From Actinomycetota bacterium (GTDB lineage Bacteria; Actinomycetota; Thermoleophilia; Gaiellales; F1-60-MAGs149): a DNA stretch of 34,388 bases. Every line of letters starts with the position of its first letter. Positions within the stretch are counted from its first letter, which is position 1. The DNA is taken from assembly GCA_009885805.1 (NCBI GenBank), contig VFJZ01000056.1:1-34388 (forward strand). The letters are read 5' to 3'. The notes beneath the pieces are model-generated. The model was not told where the DNA came from. It saw only the letters and a list, made by a program, of their open reading frames with translations, and made no database searches. The translations under genes were made by a program, and so were the position numbers. Positions 10,875-32,904 of the stretch are shown here, one piece after another.

Positions 10875-13109
10875 TCAGGCCGACTTCGGCAGCGTCCAGG
10901 CGACCGGGTCGGCCACGAGTCGGCTGATCTCGTCCGCCAGGACCGGGCGACAGAACAGGAACCCTTGCGCGAGCCGACAGCCGAGTGACTGGAGGGCTAA
11001 GCACTGCGCCTTCGTTTCGACACCCTCGGCGATGAGGTCGATCGAGAGCGCGTTGGCGAGCGTCGATACGGCGGCGACGATGCTCGTGGTTGTCGTTGTG
11101 GGCGTCTCGTGGAGGCCCGCCACGAACGTGCGATCCAGCTTCAGGGCGTCGAGTGGGAAGCGCTGGATGTACGCGAGAGACGAGTATCCGGTGCCGAAAT
11201 CGTCGAGCAGCAGCCGGATGCCTAGCGCCTTGATGTCCTCGATCCGCCCGGCGTGTCCGGGGTCATCGTCGAGCAGGATTGACTCGGTGATCTCCAGCCC
11301 GAGGAGCTCCCCGGGGAGTCCCGACTGCTCGAGGCTCGCACGGAGATGGTCGACGAGTCCGGCATCGCTCAGCTGCCGCGGCGAGACGTTGACGCTGACG
11401 CCGATCGGAGGAGCGCCGGCCCGTCCCCGGTTCCAGCGCACCGCATCCTGTGTGGCGCAGATGATCACGTTTCGACCGATCGCCGTGATCAGCCCGGTGT
11501 CTTCGGCGACGCTGATGAAGGCGTCCGGAGAGATGAGGCCGAGGGTCGGGTGGCGCCAGCGCACCAGTGCTTCGACCGCTGTGATGGCGCCGGACTGGAG
11601 CTCGACGATCGGCTGGTAGTGCACCTCGAACTCGTCCCGTTCGATCGCCACACGCAGGTCGTCCTGCTTCCTCACCCGCGCAAGCATTCGATTGCGCATC
11701 GCGTCGTCGAACACCTCGACCCGGCCGCGGCCTGCGCTCTTGGCCGCGTACATCGCCGTATCGGCGTCGCGGAGTGCCTCGTCCGGGCCGACGAGGTCCG
11801 GGCCGAACGCGATGCCTATGCTTGCGCTGAGGGTGACGTTGCCGGCGTCCCGGATCGTGAGCGGCTCGCCCAGATGCCGGAGTATGCGCAGCGCGATCTC
11901 GCGGACATCCGCCGCGTCGCCGACAGCCTGGCAGACGACCACGAACTCGTCGCCGCCGAAGCGCGCCACGACGTCGTTCGGGCGTAGGGCGTTCTGGATC
12001 CGCTCGGCGACCTCAACGAGGACACGGTCTCCCAGGCCGTGGCCGTACGTATCGTTCACGTCCTTGAAGTTGTCGAGATCGATGAAGAGCGCCGCTGTCT
12101 GCAGACCCTCATCGCGCCCACGCGCCAGCGCGAGTCGCAGGCAGTCGCCCAGGAGGGCGCGGTTCGGGAGTCCGGTGAGGGCGTCGTAGGTTCCCTGGTA
12201 GCGGATCGCTGCGTCTGCCCGATCCCGTGCGACTGCGGCCGAGATCGTCGTCACGACCGACGTCAGAAATCCCACGTCGTCGGTGTCGAAGTGGCCGGCA
12301 TCCCGTGAGAGCGCCTCGATGAAGCCCCAGACACCTGACTCGCCTGCGATCGGCACGGCAATGGCGCTTCGCGCTCCGAACCGCGCAATCCGATCCCGCC
12401 GGGCGGTCGTTGCGGTCTCGAGGTCGTCGACGACGACGGGCGCATCTCGTTCGGTCGTCGCCGCCACGATGCCCGGGCGCTGCGGCAGCCCCTCCGGCGT
12501 GACGGCCGAGGCGACGATGCCGACGCCCGCCCGGAGGAGCCCCTCGCCGGCCTCGGTGGTCTGCCAGATACCCACGCCGTCGCAGGCGAAGGCGGCGGCG
12601 ACGGCGCCGGCGGTCTCGTGGAGCGCCTCGGGAAGCAGCATGCCCAGGATCCGTTCGCCGATCGGTCGCAGCGTCCCCTGCCGCTCTGCCCGACCGATCG
12701 CGAGTTTCTCGGTACGCGCAAGTTCGTCCGTCGCACGCCTGCGCTCGGTGATGTCGACCACAACGCCGGTGACGAGGAGCCCCGTGTCGGACCGTACCGG
12801 ATGCATCTGGTCCCACACCCACCGCACCCGGCCATCGAAGCCCACCAGCCGGTACTCCAGTTCGGTCGGGACGGCGCGGAGGAGCTGTCCGAAGCTCGCG
12901 TCGTACGCCTCCCGGTCGTCCGGGTGGATCGCCTTGTCGTACGCCTCCTCGGGCGACAGTTCGGGAGGGTGGTTGCCTATCAGAGCCTCCAGACCAACGA
13001 ACTCATTGCAGACGTACGTCTCGTCGGGGAAGATCTCCAACTCGTAGAGCATGATCGCGACGACGCCTGCGATTCGGCGGATGACGCTGCTGTCGCTGTC
13101 GTAGCCCAC
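10875..13109 (-). CDS. PAS-GAF-GGDEF-EAL cyclic-di-GMP turnover protein
   Basis: A 744-aa multidomain protein. A PAS domain with PAC tail (about 20-125, ending VTGVVVDITERR) precedes a GAF domain (about 155-298). GGDEF (about 305-470) has an intact GGDEF at 385-389 and an RxxD inhibitory site (RPND) exactly five residues before it. EAL (about 485-735) has intact EAL at 513-515, NVSPRQL, EITES, the DDFGTGYSSL loop at 636-645 and EGVET. Both synthase and phosphodiesterase sites look competent, so it may switch direction by sensing through PAS and GAF. No transmembrane segment is present. A run of five Thr (671-675) lies between EAL helices. The GTG at 13109 is used, but the frame remains open to about 13215 with no ATG, and a decayed IS1380 lies just upstream. 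The N-terminus may therefore be truncated. Confidence 0.9.
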   Translation of the reverse strand: MGYDSDSSVIRRIAGVVAIMLYELEIFPDETYVCNEFVGLEALIGNHPPELSPEEAYDKAIHPDDREAYDASFGQLLRAVPTELEYRLVGFDGRVRWVWDQMHPVRSDTGLLVTGVVVDITERRRATDELARTEKLAIGRAERQGTLRPIGERILGMLLPEALHETAGAVAAAFACDGVGIWQTTEAGEGLLRAGVGIVASAVTPEGLPQRPGIVAATTERDAPVVVDDLETATTARRDRIARFGARSAIAVPIAGESGVWGFIEALSRDAGHFDTDDVGFLTSVVTTISAAVARDRADAAIRYQGTYDALTGLPNRALLGDCLRLALARGRDEGLQTAALFIDLDNFKDVNDTYGHGLGDRVLVEVAERIQNALRPNDVVARFGGDEFVVVCQAVGDAADVREIALRILRHLGEPLTIRDAGNVTLSASIGIAFGPDLVGPDEALRDADTAMYAAKSAGRGRVEVFDDAMRNRMLARVRKQDDLRVAIERDEFEVHYQPIVELQSGAITAVEALVRWRHPTLGLISPDAFISVAEDTGLITAIGRNVIICATQDAVRWNRGRAGAPPIGVSVNVSPRQLSDAGLVDHLRASLEQSGLPGELLGLEITESILLDDDPGHAGRIEDIKALGIRLLLDDFGTGYSSLAYIQRFPLDALKLDRTFVAGLHETPTTTTTSIVAAVSTLANALSIDLIAEGVETKAQCLALQSLGCRLAQGFLFCRPVLADEISRLVADPVAWTLPKSA

Positions 13110-13298
13110 ACCACGATCGGTATCGGCGAGATTGCGTAGCCGCTCAAGCCCGGATTCGTCAGCAAGGGTTGTCGCGGGTGGTCTCGGGGTAGCGGGTGAT
13201 GTCCGCCTGAGCAGGGATTATTCGGGTTGTCGAAACTCGAATGCCCAGCCCAGGAGGACTCACCTTGCGGGTGAACGCTACAGCGCGGATCGGGCGTA

Positions 13299-13848
13299 TG
13301 AAACTGGTCGCCGACGGCGACGGGTTGACAGTGCCGGCACCGCCGCGGTCGCCGAGTTGGCGGACCGCGTCGGGTTGACGGCGGAATTGTCGGCCGCGTT
13401 GGCGGGTCGCACGCAGCGGCGCTCGTCGGTCGATGGCGGCAGGGTGCTGCGTGATCTGGTGGTGATGCTGGTCGATGGCGGCGACGCGGTCTCTGACCTG
13501 GCGGCGTTGCGTGACCAGCCGGAGTTGTTCGGCCGGGTCGCGTCTTCGTCGAGCGTCGCGCGGGTCGTGGCGGCGGTCGGTGCGGATGAGCTGGAGGCGA
13601 TCCGTGAGGCGCGCGGCGCCGCCAGGAGGCGGGCCTGGCGGCTCGGTGCGGCGCCGGAGCGGATCACGATCGACGTCGACGCGTCGCTGGTGACGAGCCA
13701 TTCGGACAAAGGAGGGCGCCGCGCCGACCTACAAGCGCGGCTTCGGGTTCCATCCGATGCTCGCCTTCTGCGCGGAGACGCGCGAGGCGGTGGCCGGGAT
13801 CCTGCGGCCCGGCAACGCCGGCGCGAACACCGCCCCGTCGACTCAAAT
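13299..13848 (+). pseudogene. decayed IS1380-family transposase, N-terminal half
   Basis: Blocks typical of actinobacterial IS1380 transposases appear in order but in different frames: MKLVADGDGLT (from 13299), then AVAELADRVGLTAELSAAL, GGRVLRDLVVMLVDGGDAV, ITIDVDASLVTSHSDK, and after a one-base insertion near 13708 TYKRGFGFHPMLAFCAETR and GILRPGNAGANTA. One frameshift lies near 13325 and another near 13708. Homology stops near 13848, so the catalytic C-terminal half is lost. The flank 13166-13260 looks like the element's left end, but I cannot define inverted repeats. From 13849 to 13981 there is no gene. The remnant lies between the 5' end of the GGDEF-EAL gene and the 3' end of the six-gene operon. 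Confidence 0.75.
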
Positions 13849-13981
13849 CGAACACCCCGACGACGTCACCGACCGCTCGCGAGCGCCGAACACGAGGATG
13901 CACACCCGGGCGAAGCCCGAGACCGCCACTCATGCCTCTCTTATGACGCTTCCTGGGGAATCCGGACAAGTGGGCGCGAGT

Positions 13982-14416
13982 TCATCCCGGCGGCGTCCGG
14001 CGGTAGATCGGGCCCCGTTCGAGCACCCGCTCGAGTTGGCCCTCGTGGGCGTAGTCCGGGTACGCGTCGACGCTGACGGCCGCCGCGACCTGACCCGGAT
14101 ACCCGAGCCGACGCTTGACGTCGCCATGCAGGTAGTAGCCGGCGACGACAACGGTGACGAGTGCGTCGTGCGCTGCCGGGTCGACCGCGGCGAGCCGCGA
14201 CACCAGCTCGATCGGGTCGGCGGCCTCGCCGGCCCCGTCGAGCGCGCGCCGCAGGTCGTCTGCGAGGTCGGGCCGCGACACGAGTACGACGTCGAGTTGG
14301 CGTCCGGCGATGTCGATCTCGCCGGGCCACGGTATCTCGGCGGTACCGGGGATCAGGCCGTCGGCGATGCCGCGGAGGCGGGCGCGCAGCTCCGCACTGA
14401 ACGCGGTCGCGGTCAC
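13982..14416 (-). CDS. gluconate 2-dehydrogenase subunit 3-like small subunit
   Basis: A 144-aa protein matching the small third subunit of membrane sugar/alcohol dehydrogenases. It shows LRGIADGLIPGTAEIPWPG near the start, DIAGRQLDVVLVSRPDLADDL, a middle LVSRLAAVDPAAHDALVTVV, and the family's tail GYYLHGDVKRRLGYPGQ. The GTG start at 14416 overlaps the stop of the GMC oxidoreductase as GTGA, so expression is tightly coupled. In characterised systems this subunit assists export or assembly of the flavin subunit and carries a Tat signal; here no Tat signal is seen. The usual cytochrome c subunit gene is absent. It is the last gene of the six-gene operon, its stop about 130 bases from the IS1380 scrap. 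Confidence 0.82.
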   Translation of the reverse strand: MTATAFSAELRARLRGIADGLIPGTAEIPWPGEIDIAGRQLDVVLVSRPDLADDLRRALDGAGEAADPIELVSRLAAVDPAAHDALVTVVVAGYYLHGDVKRRLGYPGQVAAAVSVDAYPDYAHEGQLERVLERGPIYRRTPPG

Positions 14417-16053
14417 GCCGGCACCGGCTGGTGGGCGCGGTTCTCGATCAGGCGATCCGCGAACCGCAGCGCCAGCGCACAGATCGTGTTCGTCGGGTTG
14501 ACGCCCCCGGCGGTGATGAACACGCTGCCGTCCGCGACGTAGAGGTTGGCGATGTCGTGCGCCCGACCCCACTCGTCGACGACCGACGTCTCCCGATCCG
14601 TGCCCATGCGGGCGGTGCCGAGCAGGTGCCAGCCGGCGCTGCGCATCTGGGTAAGCGTGTCGACGGTGTGCGCGCCGGCCTCCGCCAGCGACTCCCGAGC
14701 CCGGTCGACGTGGAAGTCGAGCAGCCGCCGCGAGTTCGCCGACGTGCGGTAGCTGACGCGCGGCGCGGCCACGCCGGAGGTGTCGACGAGCGTTTCGTCG
14801 AGCGTGACGCGGTTCTCCTCGTCGGGGAGGTCCTCGCCGAAGATGCCCCAGCTCAGGCAGTGACCGAAGCGTTCCCGCACCCGAGCGTGGTGGTCCGGTC
14901 CCCACACGGCAGCGCCGGCGCGCGCCGGCATCGCGGCGTTGATCGGCCCGCCCGTCGAGGGCGCGAGGCTCCACTTGGCGCCCCGCACGAAGCCGCGGCT
15001 GTCGTCGGTCTCGTAGAACTGCAGCGAGTGGATGCGCGAGCCGACGTTCCCGCGCCAGGTCTCGAGCGCGTCGTCGAACACGCCGGTGACGACGGCAAAC
15101 GGGTGCATCATCAGCCGTCGCCCGACGAGGCCGCTCGTGTTCGCGAGCCCGTCGGGGAACGCAGGGCAGGCTGAGAGCAGGAGCAGCCGTGCCGTTCCGA
15201 CCGCGTTCGCGGCGAGTACCACGACGTCGGCCTCGGCGCGGTCGGTCCTGCCCTCGGCGTCCACGTACTCGGCGCCGGTGAGCAGTCCGTCTGGGCCGAG
15301 CAGGAGCCGCGTCACGCGCGCGCCGGTGACGACGCGCGCCCCGAGCGCGATCGCCTGCGGCCAGTGGGTGACGTCGGTCGACGCCTTCGCGCCCTCGGGA
15401 CAGCCCTGCATGCACGCGCCCCACTGTGCGCAGGGTTGGCGTCCGGCGTACGGCGCTGAGAGGATCGCGCTCGGAGCCGGCCACCAGTGCCAGCCGAGCC
15501 GGTCGTGGGCGCGTACGACATCCATCACGCCGCGGCCGAGCGGCAGCGGCGGCAGCGGCAGTTCGGCGCCGCCCGGGTAGGCCGGGTCGCCCGCGAGGCC
15601 CGCGACCCCAACTGCCCGTGCGATCCGGTCGTAGAACGGCTCGAGGTCCTCGTACGTCAGCGGCCAGTCGTCGGCCACACCGTCGAGCGTGCGGACGCGG
15701 AAGTCGGACGGCGTCAGGCGCGGCCAGTCCCCGGCGTAGAGGACGGTCGAGCCACCGACGCCGTTGTACATCAGCGGCACGATGTCCGACTCCGAGGCGT
15801 CGATCGGGTAGTCGGCCCACCTCCCCCGTACAGTCGGATCGGCCGCCCACCGCCTCATCGCCTGCAGTTCCCAGTCGGGCTTCGGCCCGGGGTAGTCGGC
15901 GCGGTCGGGCCAGTCGCCCTGCTCCAGGCAGAGGACGCTCATGCCCGCCTCGGCGAGGCGGCGCCCGACGACGCCGCCGGCGGCGCCGCCACCGATGATC
16001 AGGACGTCGGCCCGGCCGTCTACGCGAGGAACAGGAACTGTCCGCGCTCCCAC
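14413..16053 (-). CDS. GMC-family FAD oxidoreductase
   Basis: A 546-aa flavin enzyme. The dinucleotide fold ADVLIIGGGAAGGVVGRRLAE begins near residue 15, NGVGGSTVLYAGDWPR lies near 95-110, and a cysteine cluster AQWGACMQGCPEGAK sits near 212-226. The C-terminal catalytic region has GWHLLGTARMG (active-site His) and GVNPTNTICALALR. This layout matches the large subunits of gluconate/sorbitol/glucose-fructose dehydrogenases, and the small subunit gene follows with a 4-bp overlap. It would oxidise a sugar, polyol or amino-alcohol hydroxyl and pass electrons to an acceptor not encoded here. The GTG at 16053 is the only plausible start and overlaps the glutamine-synthetase-like gene by 34 bases. 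No Tat signal is seen, so a cytosolic place is likely. Confidence 0.88.
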   Translation of the reverse strand: MGARTVPVPRVDGRADVLIIGGGAAGGVVGRRLAEAGMSVLCLEQGDWPDRADYPGPKPDWELQAMRRWAADPTVRGRWADYPIDASESDIVPLMYNGVGGSTVLYAGDWPRLTPSDFRVRTLDGVADDWPLTYEDLEPFYDRIARAVGVAGLAGDPAYPGGAELPLPPLPLGRGVMDVVRAHDRLGWHWWPAPSAILSAPYAGRQPCAQWGACMQGCPEGAKASTDVTHWPQAIALGARVVTGARVTRLLLGPDGLLTGAEYVDAEGRTDRAEADVVVLAANAVGTARLLLLSACPAFPDGLANTSGLVGRRLMMHPFAVVTGVFDDALETWRGNVGSRIHSLQFYETDDSRGFVRGAKWSLAPSTGGPINAAMPARAGAAVWGPDHHARVRERFGHCLSWGIFGEDLPDEENRVTLDETLVDTSGVAAPRVSYRTSANSRRLLDFHVDRARESLAEAGAHTVDTLTQMRSAGWHLLGTARMGTDRETSVVDEWGRAHDIANLYVADGSVFITAGGVNPTNTICALALRFADRLIENRAHQPVPA

Positions 16054-17378
16054 TCGGTCACCTCGTCGTGCCAGCCGTCGCTGTCGTGGCCGGGGTTCGC
16101 CGCGGCGGCCTTGGCGATCTCGTGGCGCTTCAGTCCGACGAAGGCCCGGACGAACTCGGGGTCGAGCGCCGTCCGCAGGGCCTCGTCGGCCTCGAACGCG
16201 GCGAGCGACTCGGTCAGCGTGCGCGGCAGGAGCGGGAGATCATCGCGGCGGTAGGCGTTGGTCTGGAGCGGTGGCGGCGGGTCGAGCTTGCGCGCGATGC
16301 CGTCGAGCATCGAAATCAGCACCCCCGCGAACGCGAGGTACGGGTTCGAGGCGGCCGAGCCGAGACGGTTCTCGATGTGGGTCGCATCGCCGCGTCCGGC
16401 CTTGACGCGGATCGCTACCGACCGGTTCTCGAAGCCCCACGTCACGCTCGCTGGCGCGTACGTGTCCTTGCGGTAGCGCTTGGCGCAATTGACCGTCGGA
16501 CCGAGGAAGGCGTTCAGCGCAGCAGCGTGGTCGAGCAGGCCGCCGATCGCCCACGAGAACTCCGGCGTCAGTTCCTCCTGCGCGTCGTTCCAGAAGATGT
16601 TGCGGACACCGTCGAACAGGCTCACGTGCAGGTGGCTGCTCGACCCGCTCGCAGCGATGAAGGGCTTCGTCATGAAGCTGGCGAGCAGGCCGTGCTGGAC
16701 GGCGATCTCCTTCGCGTAGGTCTTGTAGGTGAAGTTGTCGTCGCCGACCGCGAGGCCGTCCACGGGCGAGAACGTCAGCTCGTACTGGGTCGGGCCCCAC
16801 TCCTGGTTCAGGGTGCGTGGCCGCAGGCCGAGTGCCTGCAGGTGGCGGACGATCTCCGGCAGCACCGCCACGCGCTGGTTCGTCAACGTCGTGGTGATGT
16901 CGGTGCCGCCGAACAACGGCTGTCGGGTGTCCGCGCCGAGAAGGTAGAACTCGTACTCGGCCTGCATCCGCGCGGTCAGGCCGAGCGCCGCGGCGCGCTC
17001 GACCTGGCGTTGCAGCACACGGCGCGGGCTCGCCTCGACCGGCCGCCCGTCGGCGTACTCCATGTCGCAGATCACGCGCGCCTGGCCCGCAACGTGCGGC
17101 AGCACGCGGAACGTCGCCAGGTCCGGCCGCATCACGAGGTCGGCGAACGTCAGGTCCTCGCCGAAGCCGGTCCCGGTCGCGACGAAGCACTCGTGGTCCC
17201 AGCAGTAGATGTCGCTGACCAGCGCGAGGCCGTCGTCGACGAAGCCCCAGAAGTGGTCGGCGGTGACGGTCTTGCCGCGAGATACGCCGTTCAGGTCGGG
17301 CGTCTCGAACCGGACCAACTCGATCTCGTGGTCGCGCAGCAGGCGCTCGATGGTCTCGTGGTCGGGGTGGTCGCTCAT
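16020..17378 (-). CDS. glutamine-synthetase-like gamma-glutamyl ligase (GS type I-related, PuuA-like)
   Basis: A 452-aa ligase of the glutamine synthetase superfamily. The active site is complete: EYEF at 141-144, NQEWGPTQYE at 191-200, HLHVSLF at 249-255 (ATP/Glu contacts), AIRVKAGRGDATHIENR at 322-338. The N-terminal beta-grasp region (RFETPDLNGVSRGKTV) resembles the gamma-glutamylpolyamine synthetase and GlnA3/GlnA4 relatives rather than housekeeping GlnA, and the adenylylation-site loop of GlnA is not evident. Such enzymes join glutamate to amines using ATP. The ATG at 17378 overlaps the DapA-family gene as ATGA. The longer frame to 17501 is rejected because the upstream gene occupies it. 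The amine substrate is unknown; its place among a lyase, an epimerase and a GMC enzyme suggests an aminated sugar or amino alcohol. Confidence 0.88.
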   Translation of the reverse strand: MSDHPDHETIERLLRDHEIELVRFETPDLNGVSRGKTVTADHFWGFVDDGLALVSDIYCWDHECFVATGTGFGEDLTFADLVMRPDLATFRVLPHVAGQARVICDMEYADGRPVEASPRRVLQRQVERAAALGLTARMQAEYEFYLLGADTRQPLFGGTDITTTLTNQRVAVLPEIVRHLQALGLRPRTLNQEWGPTQYELTFSPVDGLAVGDDNFTYKTYAKEIAVQHGLLASFMTKPFIAASGSSSHLHVSLFDGVRNIFWNDAQEELTPEFSWAIGGLLDHAAALNAFLGPTVNCAKRYRKDTYAPASVTWGFENRSVAIRVKAGRGDATHIENRLGSAASNPYLAFAGVLISMLDGIARKLDPPPPLQTNAYRRDDLPLLPRTLTESLAAFEADEALRTALDPEFVRAFVGLKRHEIAKAAAANPGHDSDGWHDEVTEWERGQFLFLA

Positions 17379-18418
17379 GCCAGCCAGCGGTCGATGTTCT
17401 CGGCGACGAAGGCATCGTCGGCGAGTTCCGGGTAGAGCCGGTAGACGCGGTCGATCGCCGCCGACTGCCCGGGGCTGAGGTCCTCGCCGGGATCGAGGCA
17501 CCAGCGGCCGGCGAGCAGTCCCTGCCGGCGCAACACCTCGTGGCAGCCGGCGATGACGCCGCGGAAGTCGTTGGCGACGTCGAAGAAGGCGGCATTGCAG
17601 TCGGTGACGGCACTGTCGAGGGCGAGCAGGTCGACGGGGGCGGCGTCCTGGCTGCGAACGGCGCGGCAGCGTTCAAGGATCTCGACGGCCGTCCGCGTCC
17701 AGACTGACCAGTGCCCGAGCAGCCCGCCGACGAAGCGGGCCTCGCCCGCCGCCGTGCGGAACGGCACCGTCAGGTCGAGCACGATGTGGTCGTCGTTGCC
17801 CGTGTAGAGGGAGATCCGCTCCTGCGCGCCCGCGGCGGCGACGCCGTGGACGACGTCCAGCGTGCGGTAGCGGTTGAACGGCGCGACCTTGATCCCGATC
17901 ACGTTCTCGATCGCGGCGAAGCGCTCCCAGAACGCCCGTGAGAGCACGACGCCGCCCACCGCGGGCTGCAGGTAGAACCCGATCACCGGAAGTTCGTCGG
18001 CGATGGCGCGACAGTGGCCCAGCATTTCATCCTCGCTGGCGTCGCCGAACGCGGCCAGGCTGACGAGGGCGGCGTGGTAGCCGAGGTCGCGGGCGGTGCA
18101 CGCCTCCATGAGCGCCTGATCGGTGCGACCGGCGACGCCGGCGACGAGGAAGATCGGCCGCGTGGCCCACGACTGAACCGTCTCGGCTGCCAACTCGAGG
18201 ACCGGGCGGTAGAGCCCGACGTCGCGGATCGCGAACTGCGTGGTGTGGACGCCGACGGCGAGCCCGCCCGCGCCGGCGTCGAGGTAGTAGCGGGTGAGGG
18301 CGCGTTGGCGCCGCTCGTCCAGGTCGCGGGCGGCGTCAAGGGCGAGCGGGTGCGCGGGGATGACCGTGCCGGAGCGGAACGTCGCCAGTGTCTCGACGGG
18401 AATGTCCGTGAAGCGCAT
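17375..18418 (-). CDS. DapA-family (dihydrodipicolinate synthase-like) lyase
   Basis: A 347-aa class I aldolase-type TIM barrel. The Schiff-base lysine is Lys177 in VIGIKVAPFNRY and the phenol partner is Tyr149 in VIGFYLQP. Their spacing of 28 residues equals that of classic DapA (Tyr133/Lys161). The GTTGE loop of DapA is replaced by GVHTTQF (56-62). The protein is about 50 residues longer than DapA, with a helical C-terminal extension. Members of this superfamily split or form keto-acids such as 2-keto-3-deoxy sugars, N-acetylneuraminate or hydroxy-oxo acids; the altered loop argues against lysine biosynthesis. It overlaps its upstream neighbour by one base (TGATG) and its downstream neighbour by four, and is central to the operon. 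Confidence 0.86.
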   Translation of the reverse strand: MRFTDIPVETLATFRSGTVIPAHPLALDAARDLDERRQRALTRYYLDAGAGGLAVGVHTTQFAIRDVGLYRPVLELAAETVQSWATRPIFLVAGVAGRTDQALMEACTARDLGYHAALVSLAAFGDASEDEMLGHCRAIADELPVIGFYLQPAVGGVVLSRAFWERFAAIENVIGIKVAPFNRYRTLDVVHGVAAAGAQERISLYTGNDDHIVLDLTVPFRTAAGEARFVGGLLGHWSVWTRTAVEILERCRAVRSQDAAPVDLLALDSAVTDCNAAFFDVANDFRGVIAGCHEVLRRQGLLAGRWCLDPGEDLSPGQSAAIDRVYRLYPELADDAFVAENIDRWLA

Positions 18419-19251
18419 CAGCCGAGCTCCGGTCCGGCGATCGCGTGGATCAGTGCCGGCGTACCGGAGATTGCGTCCCGGTCGAGAGCCATCCGCACGT
18501 ATGGCCGCTCGGGCACGAACCCGCGACCGGCGAGGTGTGCGGCGACGGCAGCCGCCTCCTCAGGGACGTCGACGACGGCGGCGCCGGCGATGCCGTCGAG
18601 TCCTCGTGCGAGGAGTGACAGCGCCATCGCCTCGTTGCGGGCCACGAGTGGCCCGAGCTGGGTGGCGGTGCGCCCGGCCCGTGACAGCAGGTAGCCAGCG
18701 CCGGAGGGCGCGATCACCGCGACGGGCGCGGGGCGGCCGGCCAGGTCGTCGAGGATGGCGGCCCGATCAGCGCCGAACGCCTCGGTGTCGAGGTCGCGGA
18801 CGCGGTCGGTGATCGCCGGTGCCGGCGCGCCCGCGAATCGCCCGCCGCAGCTGCCGCGCCAGCGGACGAGGTTCCCGACAGGCCTGAAACCCATCCGGCC
18901 GTACACCTCCGCCCCGGCGGGCGTCGCGTCGAGGACGGGGACGATGCCGGCGGCCGTCAGTGCGGTCGTCGCCCGCTCCACCAGTCGGGTCGCCAGCCCG
19001 CGCCGACGGTACGGTCCGTTGACGAGGACCATGCTCACCCAGCCGAACGCGGGCCGGTAGGGGAGGACGATCGCCGTCGCAACAAGGCGATCGCCGTCCC
19101 GCGCTGCGAAGCCCGTGCCGAGGCGGAGCATGAGTCGCCAGTCCGCCGCGACCTGGTTCCAGCCGGCCTCCGCGGAGAGAGCCAGAGCCGCATCGAGGTC
19201 GTCCACGCCGAGTGCGCCGATCGGGACGGCGGCCGTGTCAGAACGAGCCAT
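18418..19251 (-). CDS. two-domain GNAT acetyltransferase
   Basis: A 277-aa protein. The N-terminal GNAT domain (about 8-135) contains WVSMVLVNGPYRRRGLATRLV with the acetyl-CoA loop RRRGLA, and ends GAEVYGRMGFRPV. The C-terminal part (about 145-270) resembles the YitH/Acetyltransf_18 domain found in many two-domain GNATs (RVRDLDTEAFGADRAAIL, GPLVARNEAMALSLLARGL). The ATG at 19251 follows GAGGT and overlaps the epimerase gene by 14 bases; the stop and next start share a base. Within a catabolic operon it may acetylate an amino intermediate or protect against a toxic amine. The substrate is not known. Confidence 0.87.
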   Translation of the reverse strand: MARSDTAAVPIGALGVDDLDAALALSAEAGWNQVAADWRLMLRLGTGFAARDGDRLVATAIVLPYRPAFGWVSMVLVNGPYRRRGLATRLVERATTALTAAGIVPVLDATPAGAEVYGRMGFRPVGNLVRWRGSCGGRFAGAPAPAITDRVRDLDTEAFGADRAAILDDLAGRPAPVAVIAPSGAGYLLSRAGRTATQLGPLVARNEAMALSLLARGLDGIAGAAVVDVPEEAAAVAAHLAGRGFVPERPYVRMALDRDAISGTPALIHAIAGPELG

Positions 19252-20275
19252 CGCGGACCTCGAAGCCGGTCGGCTTGGCGAGTGTCGGCATGCGCCGCGC
19301 GAGCCAGTCCGCCTGCCAGGCGATCAGCGTCGCGACCGATACGGTCGGTGGCCCGAACCGCTCCAGCGCGCGACTGGCATCGCTCAGCAGCGCCGTCGGC
19401 GCCTCCTCGCCGGTGATGATCGCGCGGGTGCCGAAATGCTCCGCGAAGGCGTGGGCGGCCGCCCGCACCGACGTCGTCTCGGGGCCCGTCACGTTGAGCG
19501 GTTCCGTCGGGGTCGTGCAGTGCCGCAGGCAGCGCAGCGCGACGGCATTGGCGTCGCCCTGCCAGATGACGTTGACGTGGCCCATCGTCACGTCGATCGG
19601 CTCGCCATCGCGCACCCTGCGCCCGATGTCGTGGAGCACCCCGTAGCGCAGATCGATCGCGTAGTTGAGTCGGTAGATGAGGCCCGGCGTGCCGCGGGTC
19701 TCGGAGTACCAGCGGAGCACCCGCTCCCGGCCGATGCAGCTGGCGGCGTAGTCTCCGGGCGCCGGCAGGAGCGGCTCGTCCTCGGTCGCGCCGCCGGCGG
19801 CAACCGGGAGGAACGGGTAGACGTTGCCGGTGGAGAAGGCCACGATCCGGCTCTCCGCCATCGCCTCGGCGACGAACACCGGCAGGATGGTGTTCGTCGC
19901 CCATGTGTGCGACGGTGCGTCGCTGGTGCCGAACTTGTGGCCGGCCATCAGGATCACATTGGGCACGCGCGGGAGGCGGGCGATCGCGGCACGGTCGAGC
20001 AGGTCGGCGCGAATCGGCTCGACGCCGTGCGTCTCGAGGGCTGCTGCAACCGCGGGATCGCTGAAGCGAGCAACGGCGATGATGCGACGATCGGGAGCCG
20101 CCCGGCGCGCCATCCTCGCGAGTGTCGGTCCCATCTTGCCGCCGACGCCGAGCAGCATGATGTCGCCGTCCACGGCCGCCAGGTCGGCCACGACCGCCGC
20201 CGTGGGTCGCGACAGCAGCTCTTCGAGATCGTCGACCGTGCGCGGGGCGGAGCGGCTCGTCTCGGCGGTCGCCAT
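19238..20275 (-). CDS. NAD-dependent epimerase/dehydratase-like (atypical extended SDR)
   Basis: A 345-aa extended short-chain dehydrogenase. The Rossmann motif is LLGVGGKMGPTLA (41-53). Catalytic Ser lies in VAFSTGNVYPF near 148, and Tyr176 is in GDYAASCIGRERVL. The usual YxxxK lysine is replaced by Cys180, with Arg183 nearby. The substrate region contains LIYRLNYAIDLRYGVLHDI and GHVNVIWQGDANAVALR. The family normally oxidises or epimerises nucleotide sugars or free sugar acids using bound NAD. It is the first gene of the six-gene operon; a -10 box lies nine bases before its ATG and no ribosome-binding site is visible. The N-terminal 30 residues before the Rossmann fold are longer than usual. 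Confidence 0.86.
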   Translation of the reverse strand: MATAETSRSAPRTVDDLEELLSRPTAAVVADLAAVDGDIMLLGVGGKMGPTLARMARRAAPDRRIIAVARFSDPAVAAALETHGVEPIRADLLDRAAIARLPRVPNVILMAGHKFGTSDAPSHTWATNTILPVFVAEAMAESRIVAFSTGNVYPFLPVAAGGATEDEPLLPAPGDYAASCIGRERVLRWYSETRGTPGLIYRLNYAIDLRYGVLHDIGRRVRDGEPIDVTMGHVNVIWQGDANAVALRCLRHCTTPTEPLNVTGPETTSVRAAAHAFAEHFGTRAIITGEEAPTALLSDASRALERFGPPTVSVATLIAWQADWLARRMPTLAKPTGFEVRDGSF

Positions 20276-20284
20276 CGGCTGCCG

Positions 20285-20290
20285 AGTCTA
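20285..20290 (-). promoter_or_regulatory. -10 box TAGACT for the six-gene operon
   Basis: On the minus strand TAGACT ends nine bases before the ATG of the SDR gene. It fits TAnnnT, and no Shine-Dalgarno sequence lies between. It would give a leaderless or very short leader for the whole operon. A -35 match is not evident. Confidence 0.35.
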
Positions 20291-20387
20291 TCGAACGACG
20301 CAGGCACCCGGATCGGCGCATCGCTCGCTGTGCAAGGCTGCGGGCGGTGGGACGGCGGGCGTCCCTTCTTCACCGAACGGTGGGAGT

Positions 20388-20567
20388 ATGACCGAGCTGG
20401 ATGGGCCGGCCCGATCGCTGGCCAGTGCGATGCACCACCTGCACGGGGCCGACCACGAGCTGCGGATGTGCCTGACCCTGTTGCGGCAGGAGGGCCGGGA
20501 CGTGCCTGAGACGATCGACGAGGCGCTCGGTCTGCTGGCTGACGCGATCACGACGCTCGAGTCGTAA
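20388..20567 (+). CDS. unknown 59-aa helical protein
   Basis: A short gene beginning MTELDGPARSLASAMHHLHG. The ATG at 20388 is preceded by GGTGGGAG, close but plausible as a ribosome-binding site. The protein reads as two amphipathic helices (SLASAMHHLHGADHELRMCL and DEALGLLADAITTLES), with no membrane segment or Cys pair. I do not recognise a family. It is oriented away from the six-gene operon, ending 46 bases before a strong hairpin shared with the convergent creatininase gene. Confidence 0.5.
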   Translation: MTELDGPARSLASAMHHLHGADHELRMCLTLLRQEGRDVPETIDEALGLLADAITTLES

Positions 20568-20612
20568 GCGGCGCCGCGGTCGTTCCGCCGAGTCGTTCGC
20601 GCCGCTGGACCG

Positions 20613-20643
20613 TGAAAGAAAGGGATCAGATCCCGCTCTTTCA
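20613..20643. terminator. hairpin between convergent genes
   Basis: TGAAAG (20613-20618) pairs with CTTTCA (20638-20643), and inside it GGGATC pairs with GATCCC; a 3-base internal loop separates the two stems. The position between the stops of the 59-aa gene and the creatininase gene fits a bidirectional terminator. There is only a weak T/A tract. Confidence 0.5.
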
Positions 20644-20654
20644 GGGTCGAACCA

Positions 20655-21416
20655 CTAACGGATCGGCTCGTCCTGCGGGTCGTAGACGAGCCCGCGCTGC
20701 TCGAAGCGCTGCATGTACGGGATCATGTAGTCGAGCACGGCGGCGACGATCTTCTCGCCCTTCTCGACGGTGCCTCGCCTGGGGGCGCCGGACGCGCCGT
20801 AGGCGGTGATCTCCTCGAAGAGCCAGATCTCCTTCACGAACGGGTCGACGGTCGGGACCTGGCCGCGCGCCTCGGCCATGTTCATGAGTTCCGGAAAGAG
20901 CGTCAGGCCGAGCGACGTCTCGACCTCGCCCGCGTGGCCCCAGCCGCTCCAGACCTCGAACGTGTCCTTCGGCAGCATCTGGTTCAGGATCACCCACCAG
21001 TCGATCGCGGCGATGCTCATCTCGGGATGCGCGATCTTGATGTCGCGGGCCCCGATCTCGGCCGACGGGATGTTGCCGTCGTGGCCGTTCAGGAGCAGCA
21101 CCCGTTCGATCCCCCAGTGGTGGAGCGACTCGAGCACGTCGCGGATGATCCTGATGTGCGTGTCGGCGCTGACCGTCACGCACATCGGCTTGTGCCGGTA
21201 GTGCCCGCTCATGCCGAGATAGTTCGGCGGCAGCACGACAGTCTGCTCGAGCTGCTCGGCGATCCGCACTGCGAGCGCATGCGAGGCGATCGCGTCGGTG
21301 CCGAACGGCATGTGGTCGCCGTGGCTTTCACATGATCCGATGGGGACGATCGCGGCCTTGAAGCCCGCCGCTTCGAACTCCTTCGTGGTCAGCTCCTCAA
21401 GCTGTACGCGCTTCAT
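20655..21416 (-). CDS. creatininase-family amidohydrolase
   Basis: A 253-aa metal-dependent amidase. The family signature is complete: PIGSCESHGDHMPFGTD at about 25-41 (Glu30, His32, Asp41 as metal ligands), LLLNGHDGN near 108-116, and SGWGHAGEVETS with the third-ligand Glu. The ATG at 21416 follows AGGAGAGG; the longer open frame to 21503 is not needed. Known members hydrolyse creatinine, or open lactam/amide rings as in mycofactocin MftE, riboflavin (ArfB) and 3-dehydro-scyllo-inosose type reactions; no mycofactocin or flavin genes are near. It is divergent from an isochorismatase-fold amidase across a 142-bp gap, so the two may share control. The substrate is not determined. Confidence 0.9.
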   Translation of the reverse strand: MKRVQLEELTTKEFEAAGFKAAIVPIGSCESHGDHMPFGTDAIASHALAVRIAEQLEQTVVLPPNYLGMSGHYRHKPMCVTVSADTHIRIIRDVLESLHHWGIERVLLLNGHDGNIPSAEIGARDIKIAHPEMSIAAIDWWVILNQMLPKDTFEVWSGWGHAGEVETSLGLTLFPELMNMAEARGQVPTVDPFVKEIWLFEEITAYGASGAPRRGTVEKGEKIVAAVLDYMIPYMQRFEQRGLVYDPQDEPIR

Positions 21417-21510
21417 CGCGCCCTCTCCTGTCGGCTGGGGCTGGAGGGTAGGCGATCGTCCGACGTACCGCCGGTTTGGAACTGGCGAGCGACCGAACGA
21501 CATCAGGCGC

Positions 21511-21516
21511 TAGGAT
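21511..21516 (+). promoter_or_regulatory. -10 box TAGGAT in the divergent creatininase/amidase region
   Basis: TAGGAT lies in the 142-bp region (21417-21558) between the two divergent genes and points toward the amidase. A transcript from it would have a leader of about 40 bases. No clear -35 or operator is visible apart from AT-poor spacer; the call is weak. Confidence 0.25.
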
Positions 21517-21558
21517 CGGCGCATCGACGGCCCCCCCGTACCGCGCGTCGCCTCGGCG

Positions 21559-22185
21559 GTGCCTATGATCGAACGGCTCGAGGCGCCGGCACTCGTCGTC
21601 GTCGACATGCAGAACGACTTCGTGCGCGCGGGGGCGCCGCTCGAGGTGGCCGAAGCGCGGGCGACGATCGCCGCCCAGCGTCGCCTGCTGGCCGCCTTCC
21701 GCGCCCGCGGCCTGCCGGTCGTCTTCACGCGGTTCCTGTCCCTCGAGACCGACAACCTCCTCTGGCGATGGTCGCCGGAGTGTCACCCCGCAACGCGTGC
21801 CTGCTGGCCGGATCACGTTCGCGCGTACAGCGACGCACCTACACCGCTCCGGTGCGCCGACGTCATCGACGAACTTGCGCCCGCGCCCGGCGAGGAGGTG
21901 ATCGACAAGCTCGGGTACGGCGCCTTTCACGGCACCGACCTCGACGAGCGTCTGCGCGCTCGCGGCGTCCGTTCGCTCGTGGTGACCGGCACGGTGACCC
22001 AGATCTGCGTCGAGGAGGCCGCGCGCGAGGCATTCCATCATGGGTACGCGACGACCATCGTGTCGGATGCCGTCTCGAGCTTCGCGCCGGACCTGCACGT
22101 CGCGACGCTGCGCAACTTCGCGATGAAGTTCGGCTGGGTCGCCGCGGCCCACGAGGTGATCGCGGCGCTCGGCCGCCCTGCTTGA
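21559..22185 (+). CDS. isochorismatase-fold cysteine hydrolase
   Basis: A hydrolase of about 208 aa, complete triad: Asp in ALVVVDMQNDF, Lys in EEVIDKLGYGAFHGTDL, Cys in TGTVTQICVEEAAREAF. The compact size and the single ICVE nucleophile motif match nicotinamidase/biuret/carbamoyl-hydrolase relatives. The GTG at 21559 and ATG at 21565 are both usable. It lies 58 bases before the YhfX-like gene in the same direction and diverges from the creatininase gene. The creatinine route through N-methylhydantoin ends with N-carbamoylsarcosine amidohydrolase, a member of this fold, so a ring-opening plus amide-cleaving pair is plausible; this is inference. Confidence 0.88.
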   Translation: MPMIERLEAPALVVVDMQNDFVRAGAPLEVAEARATIAAQRRLLAAFRARGLPVVFTRFLSLETDNLLWRWSPECHPATRACWPDHVRAYSDAPTPLRCADVIDELAPAPGEEVIDKLGYGAFHGTDLDERLRARGVRSLVVTGTVTQICVEEAAREAFHHGYATTIVSDAVSSFAPDLHVATLRNFAMKFGWVAAAHEVIAALGRPA

Positions 22186-22243
22186 CAGCCCTCGCGGCGT
22201 CTGGTACGACGGCAGCAGGCGCGGGGACGACGAGGAGGACGGC

Positions 22244-23512
22244 ATGCTGTTCGACCGGATCGAGCGACAGAATCCGAACCTGCTGGACGCGGCGTTCTCG
22301 TTGCACCAGTCGGGTGCGATCCCCGCGGCGACGCACGTCCTCGACCTGGACGCGATAACCGGGAACACGCGGCTGATGGCTGCCGAGGCGAAGCGGCTCG
22401 GCCTGCGGGCGTACGCGATGACGAAGCAGGATGGCCACAACCCGTACGTCGGCGCGATCGCCCTCGAGCAGGGGTTCGACGGCATCGTCGCGGTCGAGGC
22501 GATCCAGGCGCACGTCGTCCACCGCTACGGGCAGCGACTCGGCCACGTCGGGCACCTGTCGAACATCCCGCGCGGCCAGGTCGAGCAGGTGCTGTCCTAC
22601 TCGCCCGACGCCGTCACCGTCCATACGGTCGCCGCCGCCCGGCACCTGTCGGACGCGGCGCGGGCCATCGGGCGCGTCCAGGACGTGTACGTCCGCGTGA
22701 ACCGCCTCGACGACGCGCACTACGCCGGCATGGTCGGTGGCTGGACGATCGACGAGTGCGTCGAGGCGATCCGGCCGATCCTGGCGCTGCCGGGCGTCCG
22801 TCTGGCCGGGCTGACCACGCATCCCGTGATCGCCTACAGCGACAGCCCTGCGGCCGAGGCGGTGCCGGTCGACGGGTTCTTCACGATGCTCCACGCGAAG
22901 GAGTTGCTTGAGGCCGCCTACGGGATCTCGGGCCTGCGCGTGAATTGCGCGGCGAACTGCAACACGCGCACGTTCTCGACCCTCGCCTCGCACGGCGCGA
23001 CGGACATGGAGCCCGGTGGGGCGATCGCAGGCTCGACGTTCTTCCCGGATCTACTCGAGGTCCCCGCCCAGGTGTACGTCAGCGAGGTGATGCACGAGTG
23101 GGACGGCCAGGTCTACACGCTCGGCGGCGGTCTGTCGTTCATCTTCTCGCCGGATGACCGCAAGCCGCTGTGCATGGTCGGCGCGAGTGTCGATGAGGCT
23201 CGTGGCCGGTTCATGGAGCTGACCGAGCGTGGCGTGATCGACTACTTCGGCGTCAACACCCCGCCCCCCGGGCCGCGGCCGCGGGTCGGCGACACTGCCG
23301 TCTACGCGATCGAGGGCCCGCAGATCTACGTGACGCGCTGCTATGTCGCCGCGGTGACGGGGATCGCCGCCGGCACCCCGGTCGTCGCGGGCCTGTTCGA
23401 CTGCGCGACGAACGAGCTCGACGATCGGTTCCAGCCCGTCGGGATCGAGGAGACACGTCGTCGCGTCTCGGCCCTGGTGGCGGATCGTTACGCCGCGCAG
23501 GCCGTGGTGTGA
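22244..23512 (+). CDS. YhfX-like PLP-dependent alanine-racemase-fold enzyme
   Basis: A 422-aa fold-type III PLP enzyme. The PLP lysine is Lys61 in AYAMTKQDGHNPYVG. The barrel continues with GIVAVEAIQA, YVRVNRLDD, LAGLTTHPVIAY and RVNCAANCNTRTF, ending in a beta domain with GGGLSFIFSPDD and GPQIYVTRCYV. The TKQxGxNP motif and length point to the YhfX subgroup rather than true alanine racemase. The YhfX function is unsettled, perhaps amino acid racemisation or deamination in the yhf cluster. The ATG at 22244 follows GAGGAGGAC. It probably forms an operon with the upstream amidase. Confidence 0.82.
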   Translation: MLFDRIERQNPNLLDAAFSLHQSGAIPAATHVLDLDAITGNTRLMAAEAKRLGLRAYAMTKQDGHNPYVGAIALEQGFDGIVAVEAIQAHVVHRYGQRLGHVGHLSNIPRGQVEQVLSYSPDAVTVHTVAAARHLSDAARAIGRVQDVYVRVNRLDDAHYAGMVGGWTIDECVEAIRPILALPGVRLAGLTTHPVIAYSDSPAAEAVPVDGFFTMLHAKELLEAAYGISGLRVNCAANCNTRTFSTLASHGATDMEPGGAIAGSTFFPDLLEVPAQVYVSEVMHEWDGQVYTLGGGLSFIFSPDDRKPLCMVGASVDEARGRFMELTERGVIDYFGVNTPPPGPRPRVGDTAVYAIEGPQIYVTRCYVAAVTGIAAGTPVVAGLFDCATNELDDRFQPVGIEETRRRVSALVADRYAAQAVV

Positions 23513-32001: not shown

Positions 32002-32904
32002 GTGTCGAAGTGGATGCGGGCGTTCCGCGAGCAGGGCCAGGCGGCGCTTGAGCCGGCCCGTCGCGGTCGTCGGCCGGTGGAGCAGTTGGCGCTGTCGCCG
32101 CTTGAGCAGGCGCAGATTGTGAGAACGATCCGGGACAAGAACCCGGACCAGCTGCGGTTGCCGTTCGCGCTCTGGACGCGCGAGGCGGTCAGGGATCTGA
32201 TCGTGCAGCGCTTCGCGGTTCGGCTCGCGATCCGGACGGTCGGGGACTATCTCAGGCGGTGGGGGTTCACGCCGCAGAAGCCGGTGCAGCGCGCCTACGA
32301 GCAGAACCCGGTCGCCGTCGAGGCCTGGTTGAAGGACACCTACCCGGCGCTTCGCGCCCGCGCGAAGCGCGAGGGCGCGGTCGTGCTGTGGGGAGATGAG
32401 ATGGGGATCCGCTCCGACCATGCTCGGGGCCGCAGCTTCGCGCCGGCCGGCGCCACGCCGGTCGTGAAGAAGGCCGGGCGGCGTTTCGGCTGCAACGTGA
32501 TCCAGGCGGTCGGCAACCGCGGAGAGCTCTGGTTCCGGGTCTTTCAGGGCCGCTTCAGCCAGGACGTCTTTATCGATTTCTTGCGCCGCCTGATCAAGAC
32601 CGCCGCGGGCCGCAAGGTGATCCTCGTCGTCGACGGCCATCCCGCCCACCGCGGCGGCCGGGCACGCGCGTACGCCGCTGCCAACGCCGCCGTGTTGGAG
32701 GTCGTCTACCTGCCCGGCTACAGCCCCGACCTGAACCCTGCCGAGTATCTCAACAACGACACCAAACACGGCGTCCTCGCCAAGCGGCCGGCGACACCCG
32801 ACGGCCTCCTCAGCGCGACCCGTCGGCACCTGCACCGCCGCCAGAAGCAGCCCGCCGTCGTCCGCAACTTCTTCCGCCACCCGGCCGTCGCCTACGCGGC
32901 ATGA
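32002..32904 (+). CDS. IS630-family transposase (DDE), N-terminus uncertain
   Basis: A DDE transposase of the winged-helix IS630 subgroup. Numbered from the ATG at 32002 (300 aa), the catalytic residues are Asp132 in LWGDEMGIRSDH, Asp211 in ILVVDGHPAHR and Glu248 in GYSPDLNPAEYLNND. The DNA-binding region includes LRLPFALWTREAVRDLI and RTVGDYLRRWGFTPQKP. The helix-turn-helix continues upstream in the same frame (LQRDAARLYGIHENTVSKWM from about 31955), so the true protein begins before 32002. The frame is open back to 31882, about 340 codons, the family's normal size, but no start codon in that frame is convincing. The catalytic core is intact; the N-terminus may have been altered by the repeat-linked rearrangement. 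From 32905 to 33083 no gene is seen. Confidence 0.85.
   Translation: MSKWMRAFREQGQAALEPARRGRRPVEQLALSPLEQAQIVRTIRDKNPDQLRLPFALWTREAVRDLIVQRFAVRLAIRTVGDYLRRWGFTPQKPVQRAYEQNPVAVEAWLKDTYPALRARAKREGAVVLWGDEMGIRSDHARGRSFAPAGATPVVKKAGRRFGCNVIQAVGNRGELWFRVFQGRFSQDVFIDFLRRLIKTAAGRKVILVVDGHPAHRGGRARAYAAANAAVLEVVYLPGYSPDLNPAEYLNNDTKHGVLAKRPATPDGLLSATRRHLHRRQKQPAVVRNFFRHPAVAYAA

Follow-up and report, generated by a model that had tools for sequence, protein, structure and literature searches.

Gamma-glutamylation is a known handle in amine catabolism, where putrescine, ethanolamine, isopropylamine, and anilines are among the compounds handled in this way. In the Puu pathway for putrescine (PuuA-PuuB-PuuC-PuuD), the logic is to glutamylate, oxidise, and hydrolyse. 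In the ethanolamine route of Streptomyces, the GlnA4 ligase is accompanied by a short-chain dehydrogenase, an aldehyde dehydrogenase, and a glutamine amidotransferase (PMC6529630). The amine-glutamylating GoaS enzymes, organic-amine ligases such as NpaA1 (PDB 8wwu), IpuC, and AtdA1, have the glutamine synthetase (GS) fold and have lost the Glu-flap residue (PMC11335346). Here, a stretch of 34,388 nucleotides from an Actinomycetota bacterium (the window) was analysed, and it carries a gene set that is best read, by analogy, as akin to the GlnA4 route for ethanolamine and to the Puu route. The set is real, conserved, and partly mobile, and it is probably catabolic, a variation on amine breakdown through glutamylation and not a system of a new kind.

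The core of the set is six genes on the reverse strand at positions 13982-20275, whose successive overlaps of 14, 1, 4, 34, and 4 bases, read directly from the open reading frames, match exactly those given in a preliminary description of this DNA. Pfam also agrees with the families named there (Epimerase, GNAT, DHDPS, Gln-synt_C, and GMC_oxred N/C). Reading leftward, the genes encode an epimerase-like extended SDR (20275-19238; 345 aa; PF01370, 3e-10), a two-domain GNAT N-acetyltransferase (19251-18418; 277 aa; PF18014, 1.8e-15, and PF00583, 1.5e-8), a Schiff-base enzyme of the DapA/N-acetylneuraminate-lyase superfamily (18418-17375; 347 aa; DHDPS), a GS-like ligase (17378-16020; 452 aa; Gln-synt_C, 1e-84), a GMC dehydrogenase (16053-14413; 546 aa; GMC_oxred N/C), and the small subunit of the latter (14416-13982; 144 aa), which had no Pfam match above threshold and no PDB match and is assigned by its pairing with the GMC gene. 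The 34-base GS/GMC overlap stands, since the GMC gene starts at a GTG (16053) and has no later in-frame ATG, GTG, or TTG ahead of the Rossmann motif. The single -10 box from which the run had been said to start holds up only in part: a TAGACT does lie at 20290-20285, 9 bases before the SDR ATG, but it is a weak candidate, and a sigma-70 scan found no promoter in 13000-22300. Within the gap that precedes the SDR gene there is also a possible small gene of 59 aa on the opposite strand (20388-20567, +). Farther out, a creatininase-family hydrolase gene (20655-21503, -; PF02633, 4.3e-55) stands between the run and a gene for an isochorismatase-fold cysteine hydrolase, a probable amidase (21559-22185, +; PF00857, 5.7e-45), and 58 bases beyond the latter comes a YhfX-like gene of the alanine-racemase fold, the two together spanning 21559-23512 (+).

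A first point of comparison with the described systems is the ligase. Over its catalytic domain it aligns with true glutamine synthetases, but it carries a Tyr in place of the flap Glu (RKDTYAP versus PGYEAP in true GS), and the flap reads GTYAP in the orthologues from two other genomes, G059 and G419, which are described below. The combination of a GS fold and a lost Glu flap is shared with the GoaS ligases, and the NpaA1 structure 8wwu is among the ligase's best PDB matches (6e-51), whereas the catabolic partners differ, the window set having no dioxygenase or P450. It is extremely improbable that the enzyme works on ammonia as an ordinary glutamine synthetase does, or that it belongs to a known equivalog (PuuA or type III GS), despite its strong Gln-synt_C match: in addition to the flap Tyr, it scores 238.9 bits against PuuA (NF045547; cut-off 650), 237.9 bits against GlnA (TIGR00653; cut-off 429), and 225.8 bits against type III GS (cut-off 470), and the window's own genome, G000, carries a separate true GS with the flap PGYEAP (C68, L006). 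On these grounds a housekeeping GS is ruled out, as the preliminary description had anticipated. Its proposal of gamma-glutamylation is also retained, and the best reading is that the ligase putatively gamma-glutamylates an organic amine, because the flap Glu is replaced, a Peptidase_C26 gene lies beside the G059 copy, and an aldehyde dehydrogenase gene lies beside the G419 copy.

A second point of comparison is the oxidising enzyme. The GMC protein possesses a C-x5-C-x3-C motif, as in the alpha subunit of FAD-glucose dehydrogenase, with a small-subunit gene alongside, and its nearest PDB entry is the FAD-glucose dehydrogenase 6a2u (1.3e-68), in which this motif holds a 3Fe-4S cluster. The small subunit adjoins the GMC genes of this group in nearly every copy examined, and such pairs also occur in Agrobacterium, Sinorhizobium, and Roseovarius, with three more in G000 (52-55% identity; C67:113666-117269, two in tandem, and C55:2877-4484). 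The likeness to the FAD-dependent glucose and fructose dehydrogenases (6a2u, 7w2j) thus extends to a GMC large subunit with the cysteine motif and a small partner, but the window set differs in that no Tat signal was seen by eye on the 144-aa small subunit and no cytochrome c gene was found among the neighbouring genes examined. The dehydrogenase and its small subunit are probably cytoplasmic.

Three lineages were found to carry the set, complete or for the most part, each in its own arrangement. In G059, from another family of the same order, the six genes are all contained in 8 kb, as two divergent units. One holds the lyase (78% identical to that of the window), GNAT (53%), and SDR (71%) genes, while the other holds the isochorismatase-fold hydrolase (75.5%), GS (77-78%), GMC (77%), and small-subunit (58%) genes, the last of them cut by the contig end, with an added Peptidase_C26 gene of the gamma-glutamyl-hydrolase type between GS and GMC. 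In G419, from the same phylum and another class, a LacI regulator gene comes first and is followed by GS (71%) and an aldehyde dehydrogenase; next are the hydrolase (54%), a branched-chain/urea-type ABC importer, a DapA-family gene, and an LLM flavoprotein, with GMC (73%) and then the small subunit (49%) last. The SDR and GNAT genes are absent from this cluster, and its DapA-family gene is a distant paralogue (33%) of the window lyase. The co-occurrence is beyond chance: the six genes are together, though rearranged, in G059, and GS, GMC, small subunit, hydrolase, and a distant DapA-family gene are together in G419.

The preliminary description had proposed looking for the genes together in other genomes, and they were found together in this form, but two of its particulars did not survive. 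The six families in a fixed order are not a conserved unit, which is contradicted by the divergent split in G059, by the gene content of G419, which has neither SDR nor GNAT, and by the survey below, where the SDR-GNAT-lyase triad usually occurs without ligase or GMC. The six-gene boundary also omitted the isochorismatase-fold hydrolase, which all three clusters have kept; as far as sequence comparison goes, this gene belongs with the set, because its 75.5% orthologue sits in the G059 cluster. The creatininase-family and YhfX-like genes were considered as members as well and were rejected, neither having a match in any related locus.

These comparisons also bear on how the set came to the window. 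Orthologues of the GS-like ligase were found in 2 of 399 genomes of the class and 2 of 396 of the phylum, each count including the window's own genome, and the G059 enzymes are as similar to those of the window (77-78%) as is RpoB (69-80% over the aligned pieces). An IS1380-type transposase fragment (13132-14076, +) borders the six-gene run. The RpoB-level similarity, the rarity, and the adjoining fragment together suggest that the cluster is horizontally moving or acquired. The window run itself reads as a mosaic of one unit comprising SDR, GNAT, and lyase and a second comprising GS, GMC, and small subunit, the latter paired with the hydrolase.

The first of these units is widespread. When genome contigs were searched with the DapA-like protein, 584 candidate relatives emerged; the 80 best, most of them from Alpha- and Betaproteobacteria, were retained, with core-gene counts based on tblastn. 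Among these 80 loci, an epimerase-like gene occurs in 73 and a GNAT gene in 59, and there are 55 same-strand SDR-GNAT-lyase triads. A GS-like gene was found by tblastn in none of the same 80, and the sole GMC match was a weak one (30%), with no close GMC partner in any. Neighbouring genes, whose clustering into families was disturbed by antisense shadow frames and partly corrected with GC3, include importers, TetR/LacI regulators, Gfo/Idh/MocA oxidoreductases, xylose-isomerase-like barrels, enolase-superfamily enzymes, and amidases. In several phyla, importers, sugar-acid enzymes, and LacI/IclR/TetR regulators lie around the SDR-lyase core, which fits a catabolic role, and plasmid records show the SDR-lyase pair in Rhodococcus, Paenibacillus, Mesobacillus, Aquisphaera, Streptomyces, and others, often near sugar importers. 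From these neighbours and plasmid records, SDR-GNAT-lyase is a widespread and old catabolic unit whose substrates are probably sugar-acid-like. The closest likenesses are in Bradyrhizobium, Tistrella, and Devosia, where the unit, known from annotation only, has the same three genes in identical order and a lyase 61-75% identical to that of the window, but is coupled to importers and has no GS or GMC. In the literature searched, which covered few subscription papers, no described function was found for the unit or for the SDR-lyase pair.

The survey raises the possibility that the window holds two independent catabolic modules joined by transfer, one for sugar acids (SDR-GNAT-DapA-like) and one for amines (GS-GMC-small subunit-hydrolase), with different substrates and a shared promoter or insertion site. 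The triads lacking GS and GMC in the 80 loci, the amine module without SDR and GNAT in G419, the divergent strands in G059, and the transposase fragment at the border of the run would all be expected if this were so. Nevertheless, two organisms from separate families have all seven genes side by side even though the arrangement has changed, and in the window overlaps of 1-34 bases span the module border. The hydrolase, moreover, is not confined to the amine side: it is next to GS in G059 and within the GS cluster of G419, yet it also lies near the triad in Devosia (L021; 68%) and in a Mesorhizobium MAG (L084; 60%). A DapA-family gene also lies within the G419 cluster. On balance, two separate modules are possible but doubtful.

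The active sites of the DapA-like enzyme and the SDR bear on the chemistry of the first unit. Lys177 and Tyr149 of the former, proposed earlier as Schiff-base lyase residues, are conserved in an alignment of relatives, and the predicted model (pLDDT 90.6) shows a full DapA/sialate-lyase fold (sialate lyase 5c54/5c55, TMt 0.82). The enzyme accordingly has the TIM barrel, Schiff-base Lys, and catalytic Tyr of the superfamily, and it scores only 22.4 bits against DapA proper (TIGR00674; cut-off 206). The SDR keeps GxxGxxG and the Ser and Tyr of the S/T-Y-K triad, but its YxxxK motif has become YAASC, with Cys at residue 180 in the window. Among relatives, in a family that spans several phyla, the Tyr is present in 83 of 83 and Cys replaces the Lys in 81 of 83. 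With the catalytic Lys replaced by Cys, epimerisation, which had been included as a step in the pathway first proposed, is doubtful, and "epimerase" is here a family name for a putative function.

The nearest solved structure to the SDR, by both sequence and fold (model pLDDT 90.6), is TerB of terfestatin biosynthesis (6d2v, TMt 0.83), and extended SDRs, GNATs, and GS-like ligases are found in natural-product clusters too. It is conceivable, then, that the genes form a biosynthetic cluster for a glutamylated, acetylated sugar-like natural product, but this is improbable: what the related clusters possess is importers, regulators of a catabolic type, an aldehyde dehydrogenase, and hydrolases, not exporters or carrier proteins, and ligation would be undone by the C26 hydrolase. 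The same neighbours favour the catabolic role that had been assigned to the set from the outset.

The preferred reading, to which we give about an even chance, is a horizontally acquired cluster that catabolises a hydroxylated amine, in which ligase, GMC dehydrogenase, hydrolase, and the SDR/GNAT/lyase unit would act together. The GS-like ligase would join L-glutamate to the amine at the expense of ATP, and a hydroxyl on the glutamyl-tagged compound would then be oxidised by the Fe-S GMC dehydrogenase, acting in the cytoplasm together with its small subunit. The isochorismatase-fold amide hydrolase, together with C26 in G059, may cut the amide of an imported substrate or that of the glutamyl tag. 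The carbon skeleton would be left to the SDR/GNAT/DapA-like unit, in which the DapA-like enzyme would cleave or dehydrate a 2-oxo acid via a Lys177 Schiff base. Counting against this catabolic reading, the window cluster has no aldehyde dehydrogenase, C26 gene, or transporter (in the rest of G000 no C26 homologue exceeds 43% identity), and G419 has no SDR or GNAT and a lyase of only 33% identity.

Compared with the GlnA4 cluster (PMC6529630), an amine ligase and an alcohol-oxidising enzyme are shared, as are aldehyde dehydrogenase and an amidotransferase-type hydrolase across the related clusters, and when the window, G059, and G419 are taken together all roles of the GlnA4 route are present, with GMC in place of the alcohol dehydrogenase. 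The window set differs in having a GMC Fe-S dehydrogenase and small subunit where the Streptomyces route has an SDR, in its additional DapA-like lyase, SDR, and GNAT, and in the missing aldehyde dehydrogenase and C26. The Puu pathway shares the glutamylate, oxidise, hydrolyse logic, with C26 in G059, but the ligase falls far under the PuuA cut-off, there is no PuuB amine oxidase, and the GMC enzyme would act on C-OH. The enzyme types are known and their combination appears to be undescribed, the full set being missing from the literature searched, although the few subscription papers covered make this weak evidence of absence.

A more specific and tentative proposal, which we regard as rather unlikely, is that amino sugars or amino polyols are handled by a new route that depends on glutamylation: the ligase would tag the amine, the soluble Fe-S GMC enzyme would oxidise the polyol, and the Lys-less SDR and DapA-family lyase would split the tagged or freed skeleton to a 2-oxo acid. 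On the preferred reading, too, the set would carry gamma-glutamylation over to a hydroxylated amine, handled by an Fe-S GMC dehydrogenase along with a Schiff-base lyase. Moreover, the window connects the widespread SDR-GNAT-DapA-like unit, with its 584 candidate lyase relatives, to amine chemistry, and the unit's substrate is therefore directly testable.

The window's own lineage seems to be rich in glutamylation enzymes. G000 carries about 16 GS-like genes in 3.6 Mb, with the true flap in just one among those aligned, the GS noted above, and two other GS-like genes (C28 and C71) adjoin C26 hydrolases. Lastly, an IS630-type transposase gene (32002-32904, +) lies near the end of the window.
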